Positions 9,307-26,809 of a stretch of 30,296 nt of DNA are shown here, in pieces. Below the pieces are notes generated by a model that was given only the letters and a program-made list of their open reading frames with translations, was not told the DNA's origin and ran no database searches. Numbering within the stretch: position 1 is the first letter of the stretch; the number at the start of each line of letters is the position of its first letter. The translations under genes and the position numbers were made by a program. Source of the DNA: a virus; IMG/VR virus record IMGVR_UViG_3300032194_000148, positions 1 through 30,296 of that record. The stretch is one strand, 5' to 3'.

Positions 9307-10224
9307 ATGGGAAAGTCTATATCTACTAATTACGCCAGACAGAAATCTCACTGGGGTGGTGTTCCTGGAACTATTCAGATTCATACCGTTCCTGGTATGG
9401 GATTTAATAATGATCCTACTACTGCAGTGTTTAAAGATAACCTGCCTGGTGGATTTTTAAGATGTAATGGTGCTATTTTAAATGCAAAAGATTATCTGCT
9501 ATTGTCTAGAATTTTAGGTGTAGGCACTGAATGTAGATTTGCAAAACCAAATGCTATTCTGCGCGATCCTGATCCTGAAACAGGAGATCTTGGATCATTT
9601 CAGTTACCTGATCTAGGATCTAAAGTTATGATTGGTGGTAGAGGATCGGGTGAATACCGTGAGACAACCTTGAGCAATAAACCCAACCAAAACAAGGTTG
9701 GTGTTGAGGTTACGCCAAACACACCACTTGGTGAAAGATTGATTACAAACTATATCTCCAATACTGGAGACGGCATGAAAGTTACGGCGCAATCAAGTAT
9801 TGATTTTAGGGGTAATCTTAAGTTTAACATGCCTAGGAATGTTGAGCCTACTATCATTTCGATTGAACAGTTCCAAGCACACCAACATGACGCTGATTTG
9901 CGTATTTTGAATACTACATCTGATGGTTATAATACTGATGGGGATGGACTTACTGGTGACGCTGATTCGGCATTTGATGCAAACGTAGAAGCACAAAACA
10001 TCCTAGATGAAACTCAACCAAATGTGCCAAGAGGTTCGGTTCAACACGATCATAGAATTACAAAACCTTTTACCTACAGTAATCACTTCACTTATTCATT
10101 CCCAGCTACGAACGTACCGTTGGATGACATGGAATCATATATCGATGTTGATACAACCAACTTGGAGGTTTTGAATCAAGTGGTAACTCCATTCATCATG
10201 GTACACTATATCATCAAGTTCTGA
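9307..10224 (+). CDS. Second tail-collar domain protein
   Basis: The 305-residue protein has a collar-type segment at about residues 45-115: G-G-F-L-R-C-N-G-A, D-Y-L-L-L-S-R-I-L-G, then F-Q-L-P-D-L-G. This matches the layout of the preceding protein, though the domain is more diverged. Histidine-rich motifs follow at about residue 190 (A-H-Q-H-D-A-D) and 245 (Q-H-D-H-R). The C-terminus (M-V-H-Y-I-I-K-F) resembles the ends of the preceding protein (C-I-Y-I-I-R-A-Y) and of the 1035-residue collar fibre (K-Y-I-I-K-A-Y), suggesting a shared terminal strand. It starts one base after the upstream stop and is followed one base after its own stop by the first adhesin gene, so the set is probably one late transcript. 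The likely role is a short tail fibre or fibre tip; the receptor is unknown. Confidence 0.8.
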   Translation: MGKSISTNYARQKSHWGGVPGTIQIHTVPGMGFNNDPTTAVFKDNLPGGFLRCNGAILNAKDYLLLSRILGVGTECRFAKPNAILRDPDPETGDLGSFQLPDLGSKVMIGGRGSGEYRETTLSNKPNQNKVGVEVTPNTPLGERLITNYISNTGDGMKVTAQSSIDFRGNLKFNMPRNVEPTIISIEQFQAHQHDADLRILNTTSDGYNTDGDGLTGDADSAFDANVEAQNILDETQPNVPRGSVQHDHRITKPFTYSNHFTYSFPATNVPLDDMESYIDVDTTNLEVLNQVVTPFIMVHYIIKF

Positions 10225-10225
10225 T

Positions 10226-11737
10226 ATGGCTACGTATAACAATACCTACACGTATAGTAGCAGTCAGCGTTTAAGATCAGATGTAAAGCAAGTTAATTAC
10301 ATTACTGTTGCTGGTGGTGGTGGCGGAGCCCGCCCTAATGCTGGTTTTGGTAGATCTCCTAATAATGGTCAAGATACTAGACTGAACACCACAGGATTAT
10401 GGTCGCAGGGTGGTAGACATGGAGAACTAAATCGTGGTGGTTATGGTGGATATGGAAACTACAGTTATGGTAGGAATGGTCAGATTAACTATTCTGGTGG
10501 TCAGTATCAACGTGCTGCATCTGGTTATGGACCATATGGATCTGGTGGTGCAGGACAGTGGAGATCGCCTAGTTTAACTGGTGGTGGTGGCGGTGGTGGT
10601 GCCTCGCGCTCAACATACTATCGAGGATCGAGTGGTGCTATCGCTGGTCAAAGAGTATATTGGACGATCGGGCAAGGTGGTACACAAGGTGGTAATGGTA
10701 ATAGAAGAAGGGGTGACAATGGGGCAATCTACATCTCTCAAACTACATATGACCGCCCTTCTGCTAGCATAAGTGCAAGCCCAACTAGTATTGTTTTGGG
10801 GAACAGCAGTACATTATCGTGGAGCTCAAGTGGAGATATTAATTCAGTTAATGTGCAGCCTGGTATTGGAAATGTAAGCACAAGCGGATCATTTAATGTC
10901 TCTCCAGCCTCTACGACTTCATATACAATTACGGCATCTAATCCAGCATATACAACAACTGATACTGTCACAATTACTGTATTGATTCCCCCGCAAGTTA
11001 ATATGACTGTTGACGATCCTACTATTGTCTTGGGAGAGAGCACTACCTTGAGATGGAATGTTACTGGTGATGCTAATAATATGACGATTGACAACGGAAT
11101 TGGAACCTCTAACCTTGTTGGTCAGCAAGTAATTACACCAACATCAACCATAGTTTATACAGGAACTGCTACTGGTCCTGGTGGAACAGGTAGTGACACT
11201 GCGGTTGTTACAGTATTGCCACCACCAACATTGAGTGTTTCTGGTCCAATTGTGGTTGGATATGAAGATCCAATGCCTTTTAGTATAGAAGCAACAACTG
11301 CACCAGGTGGTGTTAGTTATGTCTATTCACAGGTTAATACTGACGGTAGTACAGAAGCCGTGACAACTCCAGTAACAATCCCAGGTAGCACTGGAGATTT
11401 GGTTAACATCACTGATTTTGAATTCACTCCTGTATATGATAACTTTGGACCATCGTCGGTGACAATTACGTTCACTGCCAATGGATATGGTGGACTGCTA
11501 GCACAAGAAGTAGAAGTAATTCCTGTCAATATTGACCAGACTCCTAATGCTATTGATATTCCCTCAACTGAAGATAAGTTGAGAGATGAAGAACCTGTTA
11601 TCACACCTAACGTTGAGGTTACAACCGAACAGATTGTAGTTGAGGATATTGATATCCCTGTTGAGATTAAGTCTGACTATCCTATTCAAGTTGAGATCGA
11701 GAATAGTGATGTCTGGTATGATGTGAGGGAGATCTAA
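10226..11737 (+). CDS. Modular tail adhesin A: glycine-rich head, Ig-like stalk, conserved 70-aa tail
   Basis: The 503-residue product has four parts. Residues 1-170 are very Gly-rich (runs of G with S, Y, N, R), like the glycine-rich heads of phage tail adhesins. Residues ~174-252 and ~253-334 are two Ig-like beta domains, each with a P-x-x-I-x-x-G-x-S-x-T-L-x-W entry and a T-T-x-Y-T-x-T-A exit. Residues ~335-433 are a third beta domain. Residues 434-503 are a tail shared with the three following genes (N-I-D-Q-T-P-N-A-I and D-E-E-P-V-I-T-P). It is first of four tandem paralogues. In T4-like phages Gly-rich heads can bind the host surface directly (the gp38 adhesin type), so receptor binding by the head is a reasonable inference. 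The shared tail probably docks the protein to the virion. No signal peptide is seen. Confidence 0.75.
   Translation: MATYNNTYTYSSSQRLRSDVKQVNYITVAGGGGGARPNAGFGRSPNNGQDTRLNTTGLWSQGGRHGELNRGGYGGYGNYSYGRNGQINYSGGQYQRAASGYGPYGSGGAGQWRSPSLTGGGGGGGASRSTYYRGSSGAIAGQRVYWTIGQGGTQGGNGNRRRGDNGAIYISQTTYDRPSASISASPTSIVLGNSSTLSWSSSGDINSVNVQPGIGNVSTSGSFNVSPASTTSYTITASNPAYTTTDTVTITVLIPPQVNMTVDDPTIVLGESTTLRWNVTGDANNMTIDNGIGTSNLVGQQVITPTSTIVYTGTATGPGGTGSDTAVVTVLPPPTLSVSGPIVVGYEDPMPFSIEATTAPGGVSYVYSQVNTDGSTEAVTTPVTIPGSTGDLVNITDFEFTPVYDNFGPSSVTITFTANGYGGLLAQEVEVIPVNIDQTPNAIDIPSTEDKLRDEEPVITPNVEVTTEQIVVEDIDIPVEIKSDYPIQVEIENSDVWYDVREI
11525..11734 (+). repeat. Conserved 70-codon C-terminal module, copy A
   Basis: This is the last 70 codons before the stop of adhesin A. 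It aligns without gaps to the last 70 codons of the next three genes. Invariant blocks include E-D-K-L-R-D-E-E-P-V-I-T-P and P-I-Q-V-E-I. It is strongly acidic. Confidence 0.9.
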
Positions 11738-13086
11738 TGCCACAGATTAGTATTTCATGGGCTAGAAACGCAGGCGATAGTAACTACCTATATGGTATGC
11801 CTGGTGGAACCATTGGTCCCAATGGTGGTAGTAGAACTGCGAATGTTGGGTGGAACCAGGTATTTAATCTATCTGCTAATGGCAGTGGTCCTGGCAATGT
11901 TGCTATGAGAAGATTAAATAGTCAGACTTTAGGTTTAGATGATAGACAAGGAGCTGGCGCTGATGGTGACTTCAATGACATGCTCATATATGTCAATGGT
12001 GGACAATTTATTAATGATAGTCAGTATCAAGGTCCAATTGCTATCTATGGTTGTACTAATTCAGGTGCGATTAACTACAATCCTAACGCAGATCTTGATG
12101 ATGGTAGTTGCATAGTTGTCAATCCAATACTAAATCTTGACGCTAGTTCTACCAGTATTATTTTGGGTAATAGCACTACGCTATCTTGGTCTGCTAGCGA
12201 TTCGCAGTATATACAAGAAGCTACCGTTGATCCTGTGCCTGGTGCTGTAAATACATCTGGAAGTGCTGTTGTTACGCCAATAGAGACGACAACATATTTC
12301 TATACTGTTAGATGGGCAAATGGAACTAGACAAACGCAGCGTACAGTTACGGTACTAATACCACCACAAATTACGGTATCATTAGATAATAATCCGATTA
12401 TTCAGGGAGAGACCACCACATTACGGTGGAGCACTACTGGTGATGCTTCTACCATGACTATTACTCCTGGTATTGGTGCAACTAATTTGTCTGGTGCTCA
12501 AGCAGTAACACCAACACAAGACACTACCTATACTCTTACCGCTAGTGGACCTGGTGGTACAGATACTGAACAGATTACTTTAACTGTCATTCAACCACCA
12601 GAACTAGATTTAACTGGTCCTCTTGCAATACCTTACGGTCAATCTACTGTTGATTTTTCATATGAAGCAGTAAATGCATTGAGCATAGATGTATCAATAA
12701 TACAGAGAGATCTAGACAACAGTGATGATTTCTTCACCGATACTGCTACAACTGATGGTAGTGTGTATACATATACACCAACGTGGGGCAATAGAGGACC
12801 ACAATCAATTCTGGTCACAATGACTGCTAATGGGCAAGGTGGACTGCAAACAGTAAGACAAGCTACCGTACCTGTTAATATTGATCAGACTCCAAATGCT
12901 ATTGATATTCCATCAACAGAAGATAAATTACGTGACGAAGAACCAGTTATTACGCCTGATGTTGAGGTAGTTAGTGAACAAATTGTAGTTGAGGATATAG
13001 ATATTCCTGTAGAGGTAAAATCTAACTATCCAATTCAGGTCGAGATTGATAATTCCAACGTTTGGTATAACGTACAAGAACTATGA
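11737..13086 (+). CDS. Modular tail adhesin B: DUF4114-like head, Ig-like stalk, conserved 70-aa tail
   Basis: The 449-residue paralogue of adhesin A has a different head. Residues 1-106 contain G-A-D-G-D-F-N-D-M-L-I-Y, reminiscent of the acidic D-F-N-D core of DUF4114 domains. Residues ~107-125 hold one G-C-T-x-x-x-A-x-N-Y-N-x-x-A...D-D-G-S-C unit, a short two-cysteine repeat also known from secreted bacterial proteins. Ig-like domains follow at ~130-205 and ~206-287, a third beta domain at ~288-379 and the shared tail at 380-449. The start overlaps the upstream stop by one base (TAATG), indicating translational coupling. DUF4114-like D-rich loops might bind calcium; that is inference. It probably forms a virion projection together with its paralogues. 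Confidence 0.75.
   Translation: MPQISISWARNAGDSNYLYGMPGGTIGPNGGSRTANVGWNQVFNLSANGSGPGNVAMRRLNSQTLGLDDRQGAGADGDFNDMLIYVNGGQFINDSQYQGPIAIYGCTNSGAINYNPNADLDDGSCIVVNPILNLDASSTSIILGNSTTLSWSASDSQYIQEATVDPVPGAVNTSGSAVVTPIETTTYFYTVRWANGTRQTQRTVTVLIPPQITVSLDNNPIIQGETTTLRWSTTGDASTMTITPGIGATNLSGAQAVTPTQDTTYTLTASGPGGTDTEQITLTVIQPPELDLTGPLAIPYGQSTVDFSYEAVNALSIDVSIIQRDLDNSDDFFTDTATTDGSVYTYTPTWGNRGPQSILVTMTANGQGGLQTVRQATVPVNIDQTPNAIDIPSTEDKLRDEEPVITPDVEVVSEQIVVEDIDIPVEVKSNYPIQVEIDNSNVWYNVQEL
12874..13083 (+). repeat. Conserved 70-codon C-terminal module, copy B
   Basis: This is the last 70 codons of adhesin B, the same length as in the other three paralogues with no gaps. Only the final residues differ (V-Q-E-L instead of V-R-E-I). 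Confidence 0.9.
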
Positions 13087-14762
13087 CAGTAACACAGAGT
13101 AGATATAGTCCTGGGCAGGTAACTTGGTCTGTCCCAGCAGGTGCCACTAATGTTTCCTTTACTATTGCCGCTGGTAGTGGTGGTGGATCTAAATCGCCTT
13201 CTGATGGTAGTCTGTGGAATCATAGTAGAGGTGGATTTGGTAGAGCTGGTAACTTCACTATCGCACCAAGAAGTGGTTCATACAATCTAACATTTTACAT
13301 TGGTGGGCAAGGTGGCAATGGAGTAGGACCCCAGAATCCTGGTGGCAGTGGTGGTTCTTCCCCTCTCGCTGGTGGTGGTAGTGGACATAGATCTGGTGGA
13401 GGCGGTGGCGGCGCTACTGCTGTATACGATAGCTGGCTTGGTAGATATATTGCATGGACTGGTGGTGGCGGCGGTGCTGGTAGATTCGGTCAGGACACTG
13501 GTATCAGTGGGTATTACACTGCTGGTCGTGGTATTGGTGGTGGTGCAACTAGCAGCTCACCCTCGTGGAGAACTGGACAATCTGCTCCTGCTGGTCACCG
13601 TGGTGGCGGTGGTGGAGGATCCACTAGTGGTGGTGCAGGAAGTTTGGGTGGTGCTCAAACTAGCAATGGATATGGTGGTATTGGTGGTAACTCTGGTTGG
13701 TATAATAATGGAGATATTGGTTGGATTACTAACAGTGGTTATGGAAACTTTGGTAACGGATATGCAGTTCTTACTTATGTAAATCCACCACCATCGATTG
13801 ATACGTTTACTGCTAGCCCCAGCACATTGGTTCTTGGCAATACTTTTCAGTTAAACTGGAGTGTATCTGGTACTGTGAATTCGGTCAACATTACTGACGT
13901 TGGAAATGTGAATACATCTGGAACTGCTACGATACTACCAGGTGGTGATATCACTTACACAATAACTGCTACTGGTCCTGGTGGAACGGTTGCAAAGAGT
14001 GTTGCCATTGATGTCCATATCCCACCGCAGATTAGTTTCAGTGTTGACAAATCTCAAATTGTTGGTGGAGATACTGCCACTTTAACGTGGAGTGTTACTG
14101 GCGATGCTGATACAATGAGCATCAATCCTGGTATTGGTGGCACCAACCTTTCTGGCACTCAACTTATACAACCATCACAAGACACTACATATACTGCTGT
14201 TGCTAGTGGTCTTGGTGGTACAGATACTGAACAACTTACTGTTGAGGTTGTATATCCACCTGAAGTTTCCTTGACTGGACCACTATCTACTGACTATGGT
14301 AATGATATAACTTTGACATTTAATGCAGACAATGCTGTTACTTCATTACAGTTGTTGAGAAAGTATGTCAGTCAGGGAAATGTTGACCCAGACTGGACAT
14401 TAGTGGAAAATTTACCGACAGGTCAAAACACATCTGGAACCTTACTATTCTCTCCAGATTATGATAATTTTGGACCAGATGTTGTTCAGTTCCAGTTATA
14501 TGCCGTTGGTGAAGCAGGATTGAACGATACTGCTACTTTTGATGCATTCATCAATATTGACAGAACGCCTGATGCTATTGATATTCCTGCATCCGAAGAT
14601 AAATTGCGTGATGAAGAACCAGTCATTACTCCTGATGCGGTAGTAACATCAGAACAAATTGTGGTTGATGATATTGATGTTCCTGTTGAGATCAAAGCAG
14701 ATCAACCTATTCAGGTTGAGATAGATGATAGCGGTACATTCCAAGATATTAGGGAGATCTAA
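13083..14762 (+). CDS. Modular tail adhesin C: second glycine-rich head, Ig-like stalk, conserved 70-aa tail
   Basis: The 559-residue product overlaps the preceding stop by four bases (ATGA). The head (~1-232) starts with a V-T-W-S-V-P-A-G-A-T-N-V-S-F-T-I-A-A-G strand pair and continues as a long Gly-rich array with G-G-G-G-G-G runs. That entry is characteristic of glycine-rich domains in phage and bacterial tail proteins. Aromatic and Ser/Arg residues are interspersed, consistent with a polyglycine sandwich whose loops bind a surface. Ig-like domains lie at ~235-314 and ~315-396, a third beta domain at ~397-489, and the shared tail at 490-559. A 47-bp stretch of the tail (14590-14636) is identical to one in adhesin D, so the two genes recently recombined or are under strong constraint. 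Receptor binding is inferred. Confidence 0.75.
   Translation: MTVTQSRYSPGQVTWSVPAGATNVSFTIAAGSGGGSKSPSDGSLWNHSRGGFGRAGNFTIAPRSGSYNLTFYIGGQGGNGVGPQNPGGSGGSSPLAGGGSGHRSGGGGGGATAVYDSWLGRYIAWTGGGGGAGRFGQDTGISGYYTAGRGIGGGATSSSPSWRTGQSAPAGHRGGGGGGSTSGGAGSLGGAQTSNGYGGIGGNSGWYNNGDIGWITNSGYGNFGNGYAVLTYVNPPPSIDTFTASPSTLVLGNTFQLNWSVSGTVNSVNITDVGNVNTSGTATILPGGDITYTITATGPGGTVAKSVAIDVHIPPQISFSVDKSQIVGGDTATLTWSVTGDADTMSINPGIGGTNLSGTQLIQPSQDTTYTAVASGLGGTDTEQLTVEVVYPPEVSLTGPLSTDYGNDITLTFNADNAVTSLQLLRKYVSQGNVDPDWTLVENLPTGQNTSGTLLFSPDYDNFGPDVVQFQLYAVGEAGLNDTATFDAFINIDRTPDAIDIPASEDKLRDEEPVITPDAVVTSEQIVVDDIDVPVEIKADQPIQVEIDDSGTFQDIREI
14550..14759 (+). repeat. Conserved 70-codon C-terminal module, copy C
   Basis: This is the last 70 codons of adhesin C. 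It contains the 47-bp block (14590-14636) that is identical in copy D (16149-16195). Confidence 0.9.
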
Positions 14763-14764
14763 CC

Positions 14765-16321
14765 ATGGGCGCAATGGGCAACCTGCACACCTTTGATTCG
14801 TATTACAACCCCACGGGTGGTGATACTTTTTACACCTCAAATCCTGGTGGAGAGAACTTGGCTGCATATAACTTTGTTGCTAGTAATGTGTGGAAACTCT
14901 TCATGTCTGCTAGCGTCCCAGGTATCCCATATGGTCAATCGGTAGGAACTATCTACAGATTTTATAGCAGCAATCTTGTAGATCACTTGTTTAAGTTTGG
15001 GTCTAGTGTTCCTAGTAGTGATTACTATCTGGAAGGTGCTATTGGAGTTGCATTTACACAGAATGGATCTTATCGTCAACCAGTCTATAGATTTTATAAT
15101 TCTAGTAACGGTGACCACAAGTATAAAACGAGCAGTAATACACCTAGTGGATACGTCTATGAAGGTGTTGCGTGGTACTCTCCAATTCCTGTCTATGGGT
15201 GTAAAGATTCTAGTGCTACCAACTATAATCCATGGGCAAATCAACCAAGCACTGGATGTACCTATATTGTCTATGGATGTACTGATCCCAATGCTAGTAA
15301 CTACAATTCTAGTGCTACAAATAATGATGGTAGTTGTCAATACCCCAATCCAACTGTTTCTTTAAGCGTGAGTCCCAATTCAATTATTCAGGGAGAGAGT
15401 GCATCATTGTCATGGAGTACATTTAATTCTACATCACAGTCAATTACAAATATTGGTGGAGTTTCTAGTTCTGGTAATATTAATGTATCTCCTAGTTCTA
15501 CAACAACATATACACTCACTGGAAACTATTATGGATATACATCTGCGAGTGTAAGTAGAACTCTCACGGTGTATACACCACCAAGTATTTCATTTACTGT
15601 GGATGATAGTGAGATTGTTAGATTAGATACTACAATATTACGTTGGAGTGTGAGTGGTAGTGTAAGCACAGTGACCATCAGTCCTGAAATTGGTTCTACT
15701 AATATATCTTCTCAAGCGACTATTTCTCCAACAACAACCACTACATATACTTTGTCTGCAGATGGTCCTGGTGGAGCTGCTAGCGCAACAGTTACTGTTA
15801 CTGTAATAGATCCACCATCAGTTTCTCTTAATGGTCCTCTGGCAGTATCTTATGGAGATAACATAACACTCTCCCATGAGATGTCTAGAGCAACAGCATC
15901 ATATTTGCTGTACATAGAGGAGACAGATCTTGACGGCAATGTAACTACTCCGTCTGTCAGTCCTGTTGATCTTGGGGCAGGAAATTCCGCAAATGCTTCT
16001 TACACTCATTTAGTTACTTATAATGATAGAGGACCTGCTTCTATACAATACTCACTAACTGGAATTGGTAGCGGTGGATTGACTGATGTGGATGTTGTCA
16101 CTGTACCTATCAATATCGATCAAACACCTAATGCTATACAGATTCCATCATCCGAAGATAAATTGCGTGATGAAGAACCAGTCATTACTCCTGATACAGA
16201 AGTAACAACTGATCAAATTTTAATTGAGGAGATTGATATACCTGTGGAGGTCAAATCTGATTATCCTATTCAGGTTGAAATTGAAAACAGTGGAACATAT
16301 ATTGAGGTCAGAGAGATCTGA
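14765..16321 (+). CDS. Modular tail adhesin D: DUF5648-like head, two GC-D-GSC repeats, Ig-like stalk, conserved 70-aa tail
   Basis: The 518-residue product has a head (~1-142) with repeated Y-R-F-Y-x-S-x-x-x-D-H and Y-x-Y-E-G-V-A-W-Y motifs. These resemble DUF5648 repeats, which occur in secreted and phage proteins, often beside glycan-active domains. Two short cysteine units follow (~143-191), each with G-C-x-D-x-x-A-x-N-Y-N and a closing cysteine; the second ends D-G-S-C, like the unit in adhesin B. Two Ig-like domains (~194-272, ~273-354), a third beta domain (~355-448) and the shared tail (449-518) complete the protein. The ATG at 14765 is used; an alternative at 14774 differs by three residues. 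It is the last of the four paralogues and is followed by a late-promoter-like motif. Confidence 0.75.
   Translation: MGAMGNLHTFDSYYNPTGGDTFYTSNPGGENLAAYNFVASNVWKLFMSASVPGIPYGQSVGTIYRFYSSNLVDHLFKFGSSVPSSDYYLEGAIGVAFTQNGSYRQPVYRFYNSSNGDHKYKTSSNTPSGYVYEGVAWYSPIPVYGCKDSSATNYNPWANQPSTGCTYIVYGCTDPNASNYNSSATNNDGSCQYPNPTVSLSVSPNSIIQGESASLSWSTFNSTSQSITNIGGVSSSGNINVSPSSTTTYTLTGNYYGYTSASVSRTLTVYTPPSISFTVDDSEIVRLDTTILRWSVSGSVSTVTISPEIGSTNISSQATISPTTTTTYTLSADGPGGAASATVTVTVIDPPSVSLNGPLAVSYGDNITLSHEMSRATASYLLYIEETDLDGNVTTPSVSPVDLGAGNSANASYTHLVTYNDRGPASIQYSLTGIGSGGLTDVDVVTVPINIDQTPNAIQIPSSEDKLRDEEPVITPDTEVTTDQILIEEIDIPVEVKSDYPIQVEIENSGTYIEVREI
16109..16318 (+). repeat. Conserved 70-codon C-terminal module, copy D
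   Basis: This is the last 70 codons of adhesin D, colinear with copies A-C and sharing a perfect 47-bp block with copy C. Confidence 0.9.
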
Positions 16322-16327
16322 TAAATA
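16320..16327 (+). promoter_or_regulatory. Candidate T4-type late promoter (GATAAATA)
   Basis: GATAAATA spans the stop codon of adhesin D and lies 31 bases upstream of the next ATG, in the longest gap (37 bases) of the structural module. It matches the NATAAATA late motif described for T4-like cyanophages and 7 of 8 positions of T4 TATAAATA. It would give the 1035-residue fibre gene its own late transcript. Confidence 0.6.
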
Positions 16328-16358: not shown

Positions 16359-19300
16359 ATGACCTTTTCGTTCGGAACTACACCAGTATATGTAAGCGAA
16401 GGACAAACTATTCGCCTGAAGTTTAAAGCACCTTCGGCGTGGGATACGACCCAGAGTGTAACGGTTCAGATTGGTGATCAGCAAACAATCTGGTATATCT
16501 CTACAGTTCCAGAAGACTTTGCTCCTGATCCATTCCCATTTACACCATTAGATGATGCAACACCAGACGTTATGTACGTCTATGGTGATGGTACTAGAGC
16601 ACAAGAAGATATTATTGAGGTTGCTGGTCTAACACCTGGATCATCTGCGAGTGTTTCTCTAGTCTCATCTTATCTTGGAACTAATATTGATGACTATTCT
16701 GTTCGTATTCAGTTAGTACACCAAGGTGAAGCAGATTTTGGTGACTGGGTTATTCCAACTAGTAATATCTTTGTACAAAATGGTGACAGACTTCAGTTAA
16801 GACTCAAGTCTAATGATACTGGTGGTCTAACTAGAACTGCTGACCTGACTATTGGTGCAAGAACCGAGAGATGGACGATCACATCAGCGATTCAACCACC
16901 CAACATTCCAGAACCATTCCCTGACTTTAATGAAATTACTGGTGCTCCAGTTGATGAAGATGTTTATAGCGAGATCTTAAGAGTCACTGGTCTAAATGCA
17001 CAGGCAGTGGTCAATACTGATAATAATGCTAGAATTGGTATCTCTTCTAGTAATACTTTCGTTGTAAACGATCTAGGATACAGTGTTCTAGATGGTGTTA
17101 CTTTTGTTGATTCTAGCACCAATCCAACCATTCAGAATGGTGAGTATCTACAGTTAGTATTAACCACTCCAGTAACATCAACTACTACAGTTACAAACTT
17201 GTTAAGCATTGGTGATGCTGTCGCTGGATCTAGTTGGGGTGTTACCACTGGTAGTTTCCCATCAACCACACCACAATCATTCGTATTTACAGATGAACCA
17301 AGTGCAGAAGAAGATGCACTGATTGCGTCTGATGTAAAACCAGTTGGTGGAATCACTGGACTGGGTGCTGGTGTATCTGTACCTGTAACACTAGTATCTA
17401 CAGATGGTACGGAACCAAGAGTTAAAATTTACTATGACGATGGTAGTGAGAGTTCTGTCGGAATCTTCCCTACAGATGTAAGCAACGGAGATAGTATTCA
17501 GATCTATAACAGATCTAGTGCTACATTCAGTGGTACAGTACAAACTACGATTAAAGTTGGTACACTACAGGTTCCTACATGGTCTATCGTTACAAATTCT
17601 GGTCCTGATACTGAAGCTGACTTCACAGCACCAGCAAGTCTTACAAATAAAGCTCCCAACAGACAGTATGTTAGTTCTGTTGTTAGTGTTTCTGGTATCA
17701 ACAGAGATATTACAATCGCAGGTACAAATAATGTACTGATTTCTATTGACTTTGACGCACCAGTTGAGGGACCAAGAACATTTACACCCTCCAACAGTAG
17801 TGTCCAGTTCTATCTAACTTCTGGTGGTCTTGCAAGCACTGTGAGCACTACTATCGCTATTGGTACTGGCAACAGCAATCAATTTACTTGGAACGTTTCA
17901 ACATACGCTGTTGCTCCACCAGCTCCAGAATTACTGGGAACATGGTATAGTAGGAAGAACTCTTACACATATGAAGACTCTAATGGTGATCTCCAACTAC
18001 GAAATTCAAAGGATGATGGTCTCGCTATTGGTACAGTTCTTTCCATTCTTAAGCAACCAGGCGGAAGTTATGGTACAATAGATGGTGATCTAGATTCTAG
18101 ATATCCTGGTTTCATTGAGTGTGATGGCAGAAGTCTTTCTAAAGATTCTTATGGAGATCTATTTGCTGTCATCGGATATACTTATGGTGGTTCTGGTGCT
18201 AACTTCAATGTTCCAGATTATAGAAACAGGAAACTCACTGGTTGTGGTGTTGTTGATGGAAATAGAGCATCTTCTGCTTTCTTACCAACAAACAATATCA
18301 ATGAACCAGGTAACATTGGAGGATGGTGGTACATTGATAAGGTAGACGTTGCTGGTGATAATCCTTATGAGCAGATCATTGGTACTGGTAACACAGGTAA
18401 CGAGAGTAACTTCTTTAACTTTGGTACAGTAAAGACCCAGTTCAACGCACCTATCGAAGCTGACATTGAGTTTTCTGTTGCTGGTACAGTAACGGCACAG
18501 ATTGGACAGTTGCAGGAGAAACTAATTGATGTTCCTGTACACACTCACCTATACGTTAGTGCCATCACTGATGATGTTGGTTCAACAGGTTTGATTCCAT
18601 GGGATACTCAAGTTCTAGCTAGTCCTGGTGCCTTTGAAAACAGCACTCCGCTTGGAACAACTGGTCTAGGTGCGGGTCCTTATGTTAACTACATCGGTGG
18701 CGGCGGTACTGACGAACTATTCCGAGAGGAACCTGAAAACTGGTATAACCTATGGATTGCAGAATTAAATGCTACAGTAGGTAGAAATGACTTCTCATCT
18801 GTTTGGGATGATATTTTATTAACTAATAAAGGAGTTAACTTTAAGGCAGAAATTCTTGAGTGGGTTGGTACTTGGCCAGCTTCACCTCTTGGTGAGGGCG
18901 ATCCTGCAGCAAAAGTATCACGTACATTGTCTGCAAAAGTATGGTGGACATCACCTTTTTCCCAGCTTGATAGTGGTGACGTTGAATCTCTAGATACTCG
19001 ACTCAACAATATGCAGAGATATCCAGAAGGAGTATATGGTCAAGATCGTACTGGTCAAACCGCTGTTTCTGGTGCTATTGACGTTGAAGGAAGAAGATTT
19101 AGAGTTGAAGCATATACTCCACCAGCAATTCTAGAAGATAGTGATACTACAACCTCTTCTCATAACCACTTGATGGGTCTAACTCCTGTTTTAGATCCAA
19201 CCCAAGACTTTAGTTATGGCAACCAGAATGGTCCTGGTTCTTTCAAAGAAGGACTAGGTAGTTTCGGTAGTACGCTTAACGTCACTTTTGATAATAATCA

Positions 19301-19466
19301 ATTCAATGGTAATACAGCACCTGTTGGTCTTATACTAAATACTGGTACATTTGAGCTCAACCAAAACATTAAGAAACCAATTCCTAGTGTCACTATGGAA
19401 CCCAATAGACAGGTTCCTGTCATTGAGGAGTTCCACAAAGTCAAATATATAATTAAAGCATACTAA
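16359..19466 (+). CDS. Large repeat fibre with tail-collar domain
   Basis: The 1035-residue protein has an N-terminal half (~1-525) built of about four beta repeats of roughly 120-130 residues. Each contains a segment like N-G-D-x-L-Q-L-x-L-x-S...T-x-x-I-G...W-x-I-x-T (near residues 10-50, 135-175, 255-300, 380-420 and, partial, 480-510). A tail-collar segment follows at ~564-622: G-F-I-E-C-D-G-R-S-L, Y-G-D-L-F, then F-N-V-P-D-Y-R-N-R-K. Histidine motifs H-T-H (about 728) and S-H-N-H-L (about 933) resemble those of the two upstream collar proteins, as does the C-terminus K-Y-I-I-K-A-Y. The start is firm because a stop codon immediately precedes the ATG (TAAATG); no clear Shine-Dalgarno is present. 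It is likely a tail fibre or baseplate spike with a receptor-binding tip. Confidence 0.8.
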   Translation: MTFSFGTTPVYVSEGQTIRLKFKAPSAWDTTQSVTVQIGDQQTIWYISTVPEDFAPDPFPFTPLDDATPDVMYVYGDGTRAQEDIIEVAGLTPGSSASVSLVSSYLGTNIDDYSVRIQLVHQGEADFGDWVIPTSNIFVQNGDRLQLRLKSNDTGGLTRTADLTIGARTERWTITSAIQPPNIPEPFPDFNEITGAPVDEDVYSEILRVTGLNAQAVVNTDNNARIGISSSNTFVVNDLGYSVLDGVTFVDSSTNPTIQNGEYLQLVLTTPVTSTTTVTNLLSIGDAVAGSSWGVTTGSFPSTTPQSFVFTDEPSAEEDALIASDVKPVGGITGLGAGVSVPVTLVSTDGTEPRVKIYYDDGSESSVGIFPTDVSNGDSIQIYNRSSATFSGTVQTTIKVGTLQVPTWSIVTNSGPDTEADFTAPASLTNKAPNRQYVSSVVSVSGINRDITIAGTNNVLISIDFDAPVEGPRTFTPSNSSVQFYLTSGGLASTVSTTIAIGTGNSNQFTWNVSTYAVAPPAPELLGTWYSRKNSYTYEDSNGDLQLRNSKDDGLAIGTVLSILKQPGGSYGTIDGDLDSRYPGFIECDGRSLSKDSYGDLFAVIGYTYGGSGANFNVPDYRNRKLTGCGVVDGNRASSAFLPTNNINEPGNIGGWWYIDKVDVAGDNPYEQIIGTGNTGNESNFFNFGTVKTQFNAPIEADIEFSVAGTVTAQIGQLQEKLIDVPVHTHLYVSAITDDVGSTGLIPWDTQVLASPGAFENSTPLGTTGLGAGPYVNYIGGGGTDELFREEPENWYNLWIAELNATVGRNDFSSVWDDILLTNKGVNFKAEILEWVGTWPASPLGEGDPAAKVSRTLSAKVWWTSPFSQLDSGDVESLDTRLNNMQRYPEGVYGQDRTGQTAVSGAIDVEGRRFRVEAYTPPAILEDSDTTTSSHNHLMGLTPVLDPTQDFSYGNQNGPGSFKEGLGSFGSTLNVTFDNNQFNGNTAPVGLILNTGTFELNQNIKKPIPSVTMEPNRQVPVIEEFHKVKYIIKAY

Positions 19467-19481
19467 TATTATTTTATTGTA

Positions 19482-20165
19482 ATGGCAGAACAAGGCATCC
19501 CTCCTTATCGTCCCCTGAAACTGATGAAGGATCCAAAAATCACCAAGTTTGATTTTACGGATTTTATTGGTGTATGGGAAAACTTCGTACCCCCTAATCT
19601 ATGTGATCAACTCATTGATTATGGAGATAGAGTTCTAAATGAAGACGTGTCGTCGGTCATTGATCTAGAACTAGATGATGATGCAACAGACGCTGATAGA
19701 GTCCCTATGGTGGGTTCTGAAATGTACGGATCTTCATATACTAGAGAAGATAAGTCTTTCATGCTAAATTATGCATCATCGAAGTTCACTATGAACGTCA
19801 ATCAGATGTTGAAATCTTGTGCTTCTCATTACTGTACGCATTATTCGACACTGAAGAAGACTAGGATGGTGTCTACTGATATCAAGTTCCAAAGAACTCC
19901 TCCTGGTGGTGGATATCATGCATGGCATTATGAGAATGGTACGTTTGAGTGCGCTGCCCGTGAATTGGTGTGGATGATTTACTTGAATGACATCGAAGAG
20001 GGTGGCGAAACAGAATTTATGTATCAGAAACGTAGAATCAAACCTACTCAAGGCACGATGGTTATTTTCCCCGCTGGCATGACACACGTTCATAGGGGCG
20101 GTTTTCTTCTTGGCGACAAGAATAAATACATAGTAACAGGTTGGTATATGAAAACCCATGGCTGA
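19482..20165 (+). CDS. 2OG-Fe(II) oxygenase, prolyl-4-hydroxylase-like (1 of 4)
   Basis: The 227-residue protein resembles the prolyl-4-hydroxylase branch of the 2-oxoglutarate/Fe(II) dioxygenases. Visible features are the strand Y-L-N-D-x-x-E-G-G-E-T-E-F (~167-179), the candidate proximal iron ligands H149-Y-E151 in place of the usual H-x-D, the distal histidine within T-H-V-H (H202 or H204), and K215 before a Y-I-V-T-G-W strand as candidate 2OG-carboxylate contact. Members hydroxylate protein side chains or small molecules using O2 and 2OG; the substrate here is unknown. Cyanophages are rich in such enzymes. It follows the fibre genes by 15 bases and overlaps the next gene by 8 bases. H-x-E instead of H-x-D is unusual but tolerated in some members, so activity is probable, not certain. 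Confidence 0.75.
   Translation: MAEQGIPPYRPLKLMKDPKITKFDFTDFIGVWENFVPPNLCDQLIDYGDRVLNEDVSSVIDLELDDDATDADRVPMVGSEMYGSSYTREDKSFMLNYASSKFTMNVNQMLKSCASHYCTHYSTLKKTRMVSTDIKFQRTPPGGGYHAWHYENGTFECAARELVWMIYLNDIEEGGETEFMYQKRRIKPTQGTMVIFPAGMTHVHRGGFLLGDKNKYIVTGWYMKTHG
20121..20128 (+). promoter_or_regulatory. Candidate late promoter (AATAAATA)
   Basis: AATAAATA followed by C lies inside the end of the oxygenase gene, 29 bases before the next ATG at 20158. It is the only other ATAAATA I found besides the one at 16320, and both sit just upstream of a gene start. It could be chance in AT-rich coding sequence. Confidence 0.4.
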
Positions 20166-21108
20166 TATCGAAACAACTATTAGGAGAAGTGTTTTGGAGA
20201 TTGATCTCCTGAACAGTCTTGTGATTGACGCTACTCATATTCTCGATCTACCTAATGGTACAAAGATCAATCAACCAATCAAAATCCTTCCTGATGTTAT
20301 GGAAAGATTTAAGACAGAGGTTGTTGGTGACACATTTCACACGGAAGGTGATGAACTACAGCATGTTATTTTCTATAGTGATGACACTGCAATTATCCAA
20401 CGTAAAAAGTTAAAGTACGATTTTGCGACAGATTCATCAACTGCAGTGCAGTACATCTTTAACGGTGCTACAACAGAGCAAATTCTGGCACTAAAAGCGA
20501 GAGTGATAGATCTAATTTCTGCTTCTCGTGTTGTCAGAGAGAAACAGATCCAGAATAAGATCGTTAAAATTTCTGAAGAGCAACTATTTTATGATGTCAA
20601 GATGAATAAGAGGCTAGAAGAAAGAAAAGCAATGCTGAAGGGTTCTGACTGGCGTGTTCTTCCTGATATTGAAGATTCTTACGAAGGTGAGAAGGAGATG
20701 TGGAAGAAGTGGAGAAAAACACTTCGAGAAATGGACGTGTTCACTGCTACATACGAGGACAATCTTGCTCTCTTCAAAGCACTTCATCATATGAAGTGGC
20801 CAATCGATCCATCAATCTTTAGACAAGCATTTCCAGATGGTGTAGATATCGATGGCAATCCCGTTGAATATCTCGGAACAGATGATCAGTGGACAAAAAG
20901 AGACATTGACGCATCTAAAGACTATGTTGGTGATAGAATGGCTAGTGTCATTGAGTGGAGAGATAGATCGACTAATGCGAAGAGAAACGTAGCACAGTCT
21001 GTTGAGGAACTAATGAAACTGATGCGTGTTGAGGATTTCGTTGAAAATGGTATTGACTATTCTGAATTTTACGATGAGGAAGATATAAATGATTTGGCAA
21101 CTGAATGA
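20158..21108 (+). CDS. Putative tail-fibre assembly chaperone-like protein
   Basis: The 316-residue product is charged, without membrane segments or a signal peptide. Residues ~152-193 carry a pattern (E-E-R-x-x-x-L-x-x-S-D-W-R-V-L-P-D, then M-W-K-K-W-R-K-T-L-R-E) that resembles phage tail-assembly-chaperone domains, where S-D-W-x-x-x-x-D and W-x-x-Y-R-x-x-L-R are typical. A predicted helical stretch (~105-160) precedes it. The C-terminus is acidic. It overlaps its neighbours on both sides (8 and 20 bases) and lies between two oxygenases downstream of the fibre genes, which fits a role in fibre or tail assembly. The N-terminal ~100 residues are unrecognised. The chaperone call rests on a short motif only. 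Confidence 0.5.
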   Translation: MADIETTIRRSVLEIDLLNSLVIDATHILDLPNGTKINQPIKILPDVMERFKTEVVGDTFHTEGDELQHVIFYSDDTAIIQRKKLKYDFATDSSTAVQYIFNGATTEQILALKARVIDLISASRVVREKQIQNKIVKISEEQLFYDVKMNKRLEERKAMLKGSDWRVLPDIEDSYEGEKEMWKKWRKTLREMDVFTATYEDNLALFKALHHMKWPIDPSIFRQAFPDGVDIDGNPVEYLGTDDQWTKRDIDASKDYVGDRMASVIEWRDRSTNAKRNVAQSVEELMKLMRVEDFVENGIDYSEFYDEEDINDLATE

Positions 21109-21736
21109 TGTTCTAACCACTGCCCAGTGTGACAATATACTCTCTGTATACCAAGAGCATAGATTCCACTGTGGTAGTGACAGCAACCCCCGAGAGGGTG
21201 TAAAGAAGGCGAGTGTATTAGATTATGATGATGCAGATTATAGGAAATGTGTTGACTATCTCTTTACTCCAATACAAAAAGCAACAGCAGATCACCTAAT
21301 CAGGAGAGCTGGACAACCATACTTTGTTTGGTACAAGACTGGTGGGTTCTATGATTGGCACTTGGATGCATTTCCCATCTCTGGTATTGCACCACACTAT
21401 AGTATGACTATATCTCTCAATGACCCTGATGAATATGAGGGTGGAGAGTTAGTTCTTCGTGTTGGTAATGTTGAAAAAGAACTAAAACCACCGAAAGGAT
21501 CAATGGTTTTATACAATACTGGTCTGTGGCATAAAGTCAATAAAGTCACTGCAGGTGATAGAAAGGTTGCTATTGCGTGGGCGGAGAGTTATGTCACCGA
21601 ATCTACCATGAGACAGAATCTAATTGATCTTAAATTTGCAATCAATAATGTTGCGGATGATATCAGTCATGACCAGCTAGAGCAACTGGAGCAGGTGAGA
21701 ATGAATTTTATTAGAGAATGTGTTGATAGACCATGA
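21089..21736 (+). CDS. 2OG-Fe(II) oxygenase, PKHD/PiuC-like (2 of 4)
   Basis: The 215-residue product has the complete facial triad and co-substrate residue of the PKHD-type hydroxylases: H91-L-D93 (in Y-D-W-H-L-D-A-F), H148 (in L-W-H-K-V) and R158 (in G-D-R-K-V-A-I-A-W). The intervening strands S-L-N-D and Y-E-G-G-E-L-V-L and the G-S-M-V-L-Y-N segment are typical. The layout matches the PiuC/YbiX subfamily, whose substrates are mostly unknown. About 45 C-terminal residues are helical. It overlaps the upstream gene by 20 bases and the downstream oxygenase by 4 (ATGA), so the enzymes are probably made together. An active enzyme is expected. Substrate candidates include tail proteins encoded just upstream, but nothing in the sequence proves this. 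Confidence 0.85.
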   Translation: MIWQLNDVLTTAQCDNILSVYQEHRFHCGSDSNPREGVKKASVLDYDDADYRKCVDYLFTPIQKATADHLIRRAGQPYFVWYKTGGFYDWHLDAFPISGIAPHYSMTISLNDPDEYEGGELVLRVGNVEKELKPPKGSMVLYNTGLWHKVNKVTAGDRKVAIAWAESYVTESTMRQNLIDLKFAINNVADDISHDQLEQLEQVRMNFIRECVDRP

Positions 21737-22269
21737 AATACACCATTGACGACGTTGTACAATATGATAACTTCTTTGATAAAGAAGATTTTCAAGAGAT
21801 TCAGAATAAGACTGGATATGGATCTGCGTGGAACTTTGGTCACACATCATATGGAAGAGATCATCCAGAGCATCAATATTGCACACCATTCTGGAAGATT
21901 GATTTTGCTACAGATACATTCTTTAAAGATCACCTTCTAAATAAGATACAGGAGAAACTAGAGACACGATTTAAACTACAGCATGTGTATGCCAATGGGC
22001 ATACTTACGGTCAAGATGGGTCAATTCACGTTGATGCACAGACTGATAACGGAAGAACACTACTGTTATATGTAAATCCTAAATGGCATCCAATGCTAGG
22101 TGGGGCAACAAACTTCTACATCAATGATGGTGAAGCACATAGTATCTTCCCTAAAGCTAATAAAGCAGTATTGTTCCCTGGTCAAGTACCACACTGTGCT
22201 GCACCGTGTACTAGGAACTTCAAAGGATTAAGAGTCACCATCGCCTGGAAATTGTTTATCGATGATTAA
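21733..22269 (+). CDS. 2OG-Fe(II) oxygenase (3 of 4)
   Basis: The 178-residue product retains an H-x-D...H...R arrangement: H99-V-D101 (in S-I-H-V-D-A-Q), H154 (in Q-V-P-H-C-A-A-P) and R167 (in G-L-R-V-T-I-A-W). G-G-A-T-N-F-Y and A-V-L-F-P-G are the expected strands between them. It is shorter than the preceding oxygenase and not obviously its recent duplicate, since only the core motifs match. The start overlaps the previous stop (ATGA). The next gene starts 8 bases inside its end. It is probably a non-haem iron dioxygenase acting on an unknown phage or host protein. Confidence 0.8.
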   Translation: MKYTIDDVVQYDNFFDKEDFQEIQNKTGYGSAWNFGHTSYGRDHPEHQYCTPFWKIDFATDTFFKDHLLNKIQEKLETRFKLQHVYANGHTYGQDGSIHVDAQTDNGRTLLLYVNPKWHPMLGGATNFYINDGEAHSIFPKANKAVLFPGQVPHCAAPCTRNFKGLRVTIAWKLFIDD

Positions 22270-25364: not shown

Positions 25365-25626
25365 ACAGGAAAAGAATAACCTTGCAGTATGTAAGGAGCA
25401 AGGACTTCCTGATCACGCAGAACTAATTGATGATGTATTTTACATTTGGAAGACTAGGTTTGGTCTATTCTCTACGATGACTAAACAGGGACGTAAGATG
25501 CTCACTGGTGCTACCAGAGATGGTGTCATCATGATGACACATTGGCACCTCAAGTGTGAGCAAGATGGTACACTTGAACAATACTCTAGAGTAGTTGGTT
25601 CTGCTATTGTTGGTGGTAAGTTGTGA
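25339..25626 (+). CDS. Hypothetical protein (95 aa)
   Basis: The 95-residue product is soluble, with a patch K-T-R-F-G-L-F-S-T-M-T-K-Q-G-R-K-M-L and a strand-rich C-terminus (G-V-I-M-M-T-H-W-H-L-K-C). No family is recognised. It is embedded in the coupled array: it overlaps the preceding gene by 26 bases, and the next gene starts on its stop codon (TGATG). Confidence 0.65.
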   Translation: MDNGEQLTEQEKNNLAVCKEQGLPDHAELIDDVFYIWKTRFGLFSTMTKQGRKMLTGATRDGVIMMTHWHLKCEQDGTLEQYSRVVGSAIVGGKL

Positions 25627-26297
25627 TGGAGTCTTTTACTAATGAATTGACAAATGATAGGATAGAGATTGATACATTAGAACTCTTTCCTACACCATGT
25701 ATTGTTACACCATTCCCAAAGCATAATCAATACAAGTGGAAGTCATTTGAGAGAGTAAATAGAAAACCAGATCAGTGGTTCACTCCTCTCAATACATCAT
25801 TTCCAGATCTCACGGATGATGATCCATACGTTGATGCAGAGACAAATGCTAGAATAAGAAAAGACATTATGGATCACCTAGAAAAGGTGTTCCAATGTTA
25901 TAACATGCCACATCAGATTCGTTATAGTGCATTTTGGTATAATGCATATTATGAAGGTGATGGTCAGGAACCACATGATCATCTATCTCCTGACAATAAT
26001 AATCCATATTGGTGTGGCATATACTTTGCCAAGAATTGTCTGGGCAATCAACTAGTATTTCAACAGAAGAACTATGGATTGCGTTTACAACAGACATATG
26101 CTTATTCTGAAAGTAGACTGGGGAAATACTATGAGGATCTATGGTCATCATCAATTCAAGATGGCATGATTATCTTGTTTCCACCACATCTCACGCATGG
26201 TATCAAGGTAGGTATAGAAAATCGTAACAAAATGCGGTTGACGTTCAGTTTCAATCTTGCTATAGATGGTGTATTGCTACCAAATAATGTGCGGTAA
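25626..26297 (+). CDS. 2OG-Fe(II) oxygenase, 2OG-FeII_Oxy_5-like (4 of 4)
   Basis: The ATG at 25626 overlaps the previous stop (TGATG); a GTG one codon earlier is possible. The 223-residue product ends with the pattern of the putative 2OG-FeII_Oxy_5 family. E-P-H-D-H-L-S-P (H117, H119) is followed by W-C-G-I-Y-F, then G-M-I-I-L-F-P-P-H-L-T-H-G (H191), then R204 in M-R-L-T-F-S-F-N. The family uses H-x-H/D...H...R arrangements, so here H117 and H119 replace the classic H-x-D and catalysis is less certain. It stands apart from the three oxygenases at 19.5-22.3 kb, among early-type genes, so it probably acts on a different substrate or at a different stage. Confidence 0.75.
   Translation: MESFTNELTNDRIEIDTLELFPTPCIVTPFPKHNQYKWKSFERVNRKPDQWFTPLNTSFPDLTDDDPYVDAETNARIRKDIMDHLEKVFQCYNMPHQIRYSAFWYNAYYEGDGQEPHDHLSPDNNNPYWCGIYFAKNCLGNQLVFQQKNYGLRLQQTYAYSESRLGKYYEDLWSSSIQDGMIILFPPHLTHGIKVGIENRNKMRLTFSFNLAIDGVLLPNNVR
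26238..26266 (+). promoter_or_regulatory. Weak candidate promoter (TTGACG-17-TATAGA)
   Basis: A 5/6 match to -35 and a 4/6 match to -10 with a 17-base spacer lie at the end of the oxygenase gene, about 27 bases (predicted start site to ATG) before the gene at 26300. The sequence also encodes the conserved R-L-T-F-S-F-N motif, so it may be constrained by coding. Confidence 0.3.
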
Positions 26298-26299
26298 GT

Positions 26300-26809
26300 A
26301 TGAACATCTTCGTAACAGACAAGCATCCATCTAAATGTGCTACTTGTCTACCTGACAAACATATTGTCAAGATGCCACTAGAGTGCTGTCAAATGCTCTC
26401 TATCGTGGCATCATCTTGGTATCATGGTTATGGTGAACTACCACGAAAGGATGGTACACCATATGCCACAAAGAAAGGTGCGTTTCGTAATCATCCATGC
26501 ACAGTGTGGGCAGCAGAGTCTATCCACAACTCATGGTGGTTAATACAGTGGGGCATTGAGTTGTGTGGTGAGTATTCACTGCGATATAATAAACAACATT
26601 CATGCTATAATACACTGACTAGTGCATACTTTATGTTCCCACAGGGCAGTATTGCTGGTGTCACACCATTTGTGAGAGCGATGCCTGATAGATTCAAGCA
26701 CGATACTAGTATAGATACATTTACAGCATACAAATGGTACATTGCATCCAAACCATGGGTGCGTGATAACTATCTACGTATGCCAGACAGAAAACCGAGT
26801 TGGATTTAA
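26300..26809 (+). CDS. Conserved phage protein, possibly pyrimidine-dimer glycosylase-like
   Basis: The 169-residue product belongs to a family frequent in myoviruses with the layout M-N-I-F-V-T-D, D-K-H-I-V-K-M-x-L-E (19-28), an N-H-P-C-T-x-W motif (64-70), S-x-x-N-x-x-W-L (74-81), and L-C-G-E-Y-x-x-R-Y-x-x-x-H (88-100). Members are sometimes annotated as pyrimidine-dimer DNA glycosylases. The similarity to T4 endonuclease V is not obvious by eye, so I give the family with fair confidence and the repair activity with little. The strictly spaced His, Glu, Arg and Trp residues suggest an enzyme. The gap to the previous gene is 2 bases. A UV-repair role would suit a phage of sunlit water. Confidence 0.65.
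   Translation: MNIFVTDKHPSKCATCLPDKHIVKMPLECCQMLSIVASSWYHGYGELPRKDGTPYATKKGAFRNHPCTVWAAESIHNSWWLIQWGIELCGEYSLRYNKQHSCYNTLTSAYFMFPQGSIAGVTPFVRAMPDRFKHDTSIDTFTAYKWYIASKPWVRDNYLRMPDRKPSWI

Follow-up and report, generated by a model that had tools for sequence, protein, structure and literature searches.

A tandem array of cyanophage virion proteins with differing heads on a common Ig-like stalk and tail, and its probable role as a set of exchangeable adhesins

The window, that is, the whole stretch of DNA analyzed here, is a viral contig of 30,296 bases in which four neighbouring ORFs on the plus strand, abutting or overlapping by 1–4 bases, form an array at positions 10226–16321. The encoded proteins, A1 to A4, have 503, 449, 559 and 518 amino acids, respectively. 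A1 (10226–11737) consists of a glycine-rich head, H01 (residues 1–177, 10226–10756, with the border taken from the stalk HMM); a stalk of three Ig-like domains, Ig1, Ig2 and a third beta domain (residues 178–433, 10757–11524); and a tail formed by the final 70 residues (11525–11734), which is matched to its genome (see below) and is predicted to be flexible from the low pLDDT of this region in the models of A3 and A4. The other three genes, all on the same strand, have the same plan: A2 (11737–13086) has the head H04 (residues 1–130, 11737–12126), a Cys-bearing linker (GCTN...DDGSC), the stalk and the tail (12874–13083); A3 (13083–14762) has a glycine-rich head, H02 (residues 1–236, 13083–13790), followed by the stalk and the tail (14550–14759); and A4 (14765–16321) has the head H03 (residues 1–195, 14765–15349), two Cys linkers, the stalk and the tail (16109–16318).

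The C-terminal blocks of the four proteins (318–326 aa) are 47–53% identical to that of A1 in an alignment of 339 columns, which features runs of invariant residues within the tails. A search with A1 as the query retrieves the other three proteins with E-values of at most 1e-74, and a tail profile applied to all six frames of the window matches the ORFs of A1–A4 and no others. Chance is excluded as the source of this C-terminal likeness, and the original prediction of four consecutive genes with a common stalk and tail is thus confirmed. The four heads, also as predicted, differ, being mutually unrelated or barely related. Two are glycine-rich (the Gly content is 28% in the head families of A1 and A3); that of A4 matches DUF5648 (PF18885) at residues 63–140 with 46.9 bits against the Pfam cut-off of 25; and that of A2 resembles DUF4114 (PF13448) only below the cut-off (20.2 against 27 bits). 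Both DUF4114 for A2 and DUF4214 for another family, H05, are such sub-cut-off matches, and these names mark resemblance only.

The array is bordered upstream by a gene for a tail-collar protein (PHROG 4714; 9307–10224, +) and downstream by a gene for a short tail fibre protein (PHROG 4924; 16359–19466, +). At the loci with distances given, 0–13 bases separate the collar gene from the array and 38–61 bases separate the array from the fibre gene. The order of the cluster is conserved, namely collar protein, array, short tail fibre, 2OG oxygenase and tail chaperone, and three collar-domain fibre genes share the cluster with the array. A late-promoter-like motif, ATAAATA (16321–16327, +), lies between the array and the short tail fibre gene, and [AC]TAAATA is present in this gap in all ten aligned phages (the window and loci L005, L006, L007, L009, L016, L021, L031, L046 and L079), suggesting that the fibre gene has a late promoter apart from the array. 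The collar protein of S-CAM1 (L006, 8895–10676) has 593 amino acids, about twice its length in other phages. Four 2OG-Fe(II) oxygenase genes are found within 7 kb beside the fibre cluster (19482–20165, 21089–21736, 21733–22269 and 25623–26297). One of them, 21733–22269, scores above the Pfam cut-off as a 2OG-Fe(II) oxygenase and carries the PHROG 274 label “DNA endonuclease V”, propagated through many cyanophage records; a pyrimidine dimer glycosylase (Pyr_excise) is encoded at 26300–26809. Judged by these domain matches, the label looks wrong.

All four proteins of the window match PHROG 2155, “virion structural protein”, with E-values from 1e-129 to 4e-168. The structure prediction proposed earlier was carried out for A3 and A4 with AlphaFold2, using 25 and 22 natural sequences, respectively (models m3504b1555299 and mc9b7da4fca11). 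In both models three successive beta-sandwich (Ig-like) domains have a pLDDT of mostly about 90 or higher, the heads are less confident, and the last 60–70 residues have low pLDDT. The two Ig-like domains of the original prediction are therefore retained, and its “third beta domain” also looks Ig-like in these models. The stalk resembles tandem Ig structures such as titin I67–I69 (Foldseek; TM about 0.55 by target length), and in the viral structure library the A3 model matches virion proteins from ACG-2014, S-CAM3, S-RIM44 and S-PM2 that are its homologues. In the PDB, no match was found for the tail sequence and only weak SNF6 matches for the sequence of A4; the NCBIfam search gave no match.

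The members of the array are the same proteins as those annotated as “virion structural protein” under PHROG 2155 and T4-GC 737, 738, 739, 1047 and 1048, an annotation present in S-PM2, Syn1, S-CAM and ACG-2014 genomes. The S-PM2 array has three members, p221–p223; in the GenBank record S-PM2p222 is annotated as a virion structural protein, the record annotation being the basis, and p221 and p223 are labelled hypothetical. These annotations are silent on the common stalks, the exchangeable heads, the copy number and the matching of tails, and in the open-licence literature searched we found no description of cassette behaviour of these proteins. The array proteins are an already annotated family, to which no function is assigned.

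The array is not specific to the window and occurs at the same position, with two to six members, in many marine cyanophages: at least 12 species of cyanomyovirus as well as dozens of contigs from IMG/VR. It was found in S-CAM1, S-CAM3, S-CAM4, S-PM2, S-RIM32, S-RIM44, Syn1, ACG-2014e, ACG-2014i, ACG-2014j, S-H9-2, Sf-CH11 and Sf-FP1. In total, 244 tail-bearing ORFs were collected from 83 loci in isolates and IMG/VR contigs, and 47 arrays, with 2 to 6 genes each, are complete from collar to fibre; the array of S-CAM3 has six members. In ACG-2014h the fibre gene directly follows the collar gene, with no array between them and no tail match. Since this phage keeps collar and fibre without the array, the array is accessory rather than core.

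Once linkers and Ig repeats are masked, clustering of the heads at 30% identity and 60% coverage yields 21 families; unless masked, the Cys-rich linker common to the heads merges families, and the family borders of glycine-rich heads, which are repetitive, are soft. No head family is repeated within any array; for 34 representative arrays this means 0 duplicates, compared with 14.6 ± 2.9 in shuffles, a contrast that is indicative and not a probability, as the arrays are related to each other. PA14 is found above the Pfam cut-off in H12 and H15, in a part to which H10 is homologous; a DxSGS metal-site-like motif is present in eight of eight H08 heads; and several families are glycine-rich. Fused array genes with two tails per polypeptide were observed in ACG-2014j US23 (L007, 16239–21824) and ACG-2014e (L017, 10629–15998). 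In Sf-CH1b (L094, 12879–19325), two genes located where the array normally lies match Ig domains and, weakly, the tail, and end in domains like those of other phages’ short tail fibre proteins (phmmer E about 1e-18), hinting at possible domain traffic between fibre and array. The H05 array gene of L033 (5746–6981) stops early within the tail, probably due to a frameshift in the contig.

One possibility offered by the original prediction was a cassette that allows heads to be exchanged. This is well supported, among other things by pairs of isolates. S-RIM44 Np_42 (L021) and W2_07 (L022) have flanks with 98.4% and 98.8% identity along 11.6 kb per side; their first array genes are 85% identical, the second genes carry an H10 and an H14 head, respectively, and identity is back to 97–100% from inside the tail code of the second gene. 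Two ACG-2014j isolates with flanks 93–95% identical have H10–H06 in one case and H10 plus an 1861-aa protein in the other, homology being lost where gene 2 begins and returning around its tail. This 1861-aa protein consists of two fused array members; the H08 head of the second shares 69% identity with an unfused H08 head in ACG-2014i.

Transfer of a head between genera onto a local tail gives further support. The PA14-like H10 heads of S-RIM44 Np_42 and ACG-2014j are 89% identical, whereas identity is 48% for the collars and 55% for the tails; we rely on collar identities for this case only, where the collars are of ordinary length, as those of the S-CAM1 clade vary in length. Across the border of head and Ig1, the DNA identity of these H10 genes falls from about 0.9 to 0.55. 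The H04 genes of L050 and L060 have 83–99% DNA identity, but 0.63 over the final 50 residues. The cassette reading is also supported by nested domain insertion: in H11 (L059), with flanks 88–90% identical to S-CAM1, a DUF4114-like head is split by some 145 inserted residues that contain a DUF5648-like domain. Breakpoints map to the linker between head and Ig1, to Ig2 and to the beginning of the tail.

Two further cases carry less weight. Relative to its relative L073, the array of L079 lacks H05 and the H06 head, and in its gene 3 an H03 head seems to be joined to the stalk and tail that belong to H06 in L073. This chimera is a single metagenome contig with a possible repeat collapse in assembly, and it is not strong evidence, because a search of further contigs found only that same one at high identity. 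We also considered a loss of the H05 cassette from the clade of the window via tail–tail recombination and rejected it: the A4 tail of the window shows no preference between the H03 and H05 tails of L031/L034. In the nearest relatives of the window the heads are conserved (80–100% identical), with no visible diversifying change. The heads are thus not hypervariable by substitution; variety arises as entire heads are gained, lost or replaced.

To determine what travels with the head and what with the genome, we compared the parts of the proteins separately, a comparison across cyanophages that had been suggested earlier. In 34 representatives, with genome labels shuffled within head families, tail identity within genomes is 0.645 versus 0.551 ± 0.006 in permutations. 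The excess is smaller for Ig2 (0.476 versus 0.430) and the third stalk domain (0.308 versus 0.277), and is not clear for Ig1 (0.305 versus 0.300 ± 0.004). For 53 genes from 16 distant genomes, the closest tail comes from the same genome 32 times and from the same head family 12 times, while the closest Ig1 has the same head 37 times and the same genome four times. These counts show that Ig1 is inherited with the head and the tail with the genome, a contrast that again fits a cassette with exchanged heads. At identical residues, codon agreement in the tails is highest for the same genome (0.586, compared with 0.565 for the same head and 0.528 for neither), a sign that DNA is exchanged rather than that parallel selection alone is at work. 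Agreement of synonymous codons within genomes is raised in both Ig2 and the tail. The array offers an example of concerted evolution, in which the putative attachment part is kept common across the set while the working heads change.

Building on the architecture, spread, head turnover, tail homogenisation and breakpoints observed here, we consider it likely that the array encodes accessory virion adhesins with interchangeable, recombining heads, an Ig spacer and a docking C-terminal tail. The N-terminal head would be the outward, probably surface-binding part; PA14 in H12 and H15 and the metal-site-like motif in H08 are head types of the adhesion kind. The three Ig-like domains would form a stiff spacer, and the conserved, acidic and flexible C-terminal tail probably docks every member to one partner, which, judging from the gene context, may be the tail or baseplate fibre complex encoded alongside the array. 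Heads could be gained and lost by homologous recombination among array members or between phages that co-infect a cell. The positions of the breakpoints imply that an incoming head lands on the tail of the local genome; the fit of all members to one local partner, together with recombination via Ig2 and tail DNA, would explain why tails are genome-specific. Display of several heads on one virion, the other possibility in the original prediction, is plausible, because no array repeats a head family and one S-PM2 member is recorded as a virion structural protein. More tentatively, and leaning slightly towards doubt, we suggest that the tail has two jobs, as a genome-specific docking peptide and, with Ig2, as homology for recombination, with phages trading at least 20 heads and each virion showing a non-redundant set of two to six.

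An unlikely but still serious alternative is that the proteins decorate the capsid, with the C-terminus on the head shell, the Ig domains projecting and the heads weakly catching cells or particles. T4 Hoc, encoded by a single gene without swapped heads, has tandem Ig domains and a conserved non-Ig attachment part at the C-terminus by which it sits on the capsid. The array proteins likewise have an Ig tandem with the conserved non-Ig part at the C-terminus, the structure matches of the A3 model include proteins named outer capsid protein, and PHROG files the family under “head and packaging”. Yet the class within PHROG is the generic “virion structural protein”, the Pfam search gave no Hoc match, and in all array-bearing phages examined the genes lie within the cluster of collar, short tail fibre and tail chaperone.

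It is distinctly improbable that the proteins are structural parts or assembly factors of the fibre complex, whose heads touch other virion proteins instead of the host and track partner fibres. Such a role would suit a cluster shared with three collar-domain fibre genes. It would also suit the evolution of S-PM2d on Synechococcus WH7803 in three chemostats, for which the text names mutations in genes 218, 219, 220 and 224, on either side of the array, but in none of the array genes 221–223 (PMC9910659); this experiment counts against the adhesin reading and gives the host-range role raised in the original prediction no support. However, in the S-RIM44 and ACG-2014j pairs the heads change beside fibre genes that are 91–99% identical at the DNA level, which a fixed partner would hardly tolerate, and the PA14 and metal-site motifs among the heads are typical of adhesion domains.

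A conserved C-terminus behind differing folds is a hallmark of phage fibre chaperone domains, and the tail is predicted to be flexible as a monomer; it might then be an intramolecular folding chaperone or an oligomerisation element, possibly cleaved, and no anchor. This we regard as less probable still: Pfam gives no match to Peptidase_S74 or another chaperone in the tails; a shared local partner accounts for the genome-specific matching, whereas self-folding does not; and tails also occur inside fused proteins with another head after them, although cleavage could explain this. Finally, strictly vertical inheritance of an ancient, fixed set of paralogues, with no exchange of heads, may hold for the narrow clade of the window, whose nearest relatives retain all four heads and their order, and would suit the H01 family (50 genes in 50 loci), which leads 20 of the 34 representative arrays, but for the whole family it is already contradicted by head replacement between isolates, cross-genus head transfer and differing head sets between near-identical flanks, and is hardly credible.

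Recognisable versions of several T4 tail-fibre genes are lacking in T4-like cyanophages (wac, g10, g11, g12, g34, g35 and g37 are listed as missing in PMC2984593), and the array provides a defined set of candidate receptor binders for them. It also provides pairs of sequenced isolates in which the head genes differ and the flanks are nearly identical.

Among known systems, T4 Hoc resembles the array in its tandem Ig-like domains, of which the models give the array proteins three, and differs in being a single gene with no swapping of heads and a capsid site; no sequence match between the two was found. Modular swapping at the C-terminus of T4-like fibritin (PMC3797505) is similarly an exchange of domains in the fibre genes of T4-like phages, but it concerns one gene, affects the C-terminal part and is placed in the distant past. 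In its logic, the array comes closest to the tailspike cluster TSP1–4 of Ackermannviridae (CBA120; PMC8825819, PMC11414711), which gives one phage several receptor binders. The attachment part of TSP1–4 is N-terminal, the heads are tailspikes and the cluster is branched, whereas the array has the opposite polarity, with the conserved block at the C-terminus, an Ig-like spacer and small head domains that have no Pfam match of the tailspike type (beta-helix, glycan-cleaving). Both systems have tandem genes, differing heads and a shared attachment part, which in the array would be the C-terminal tail.
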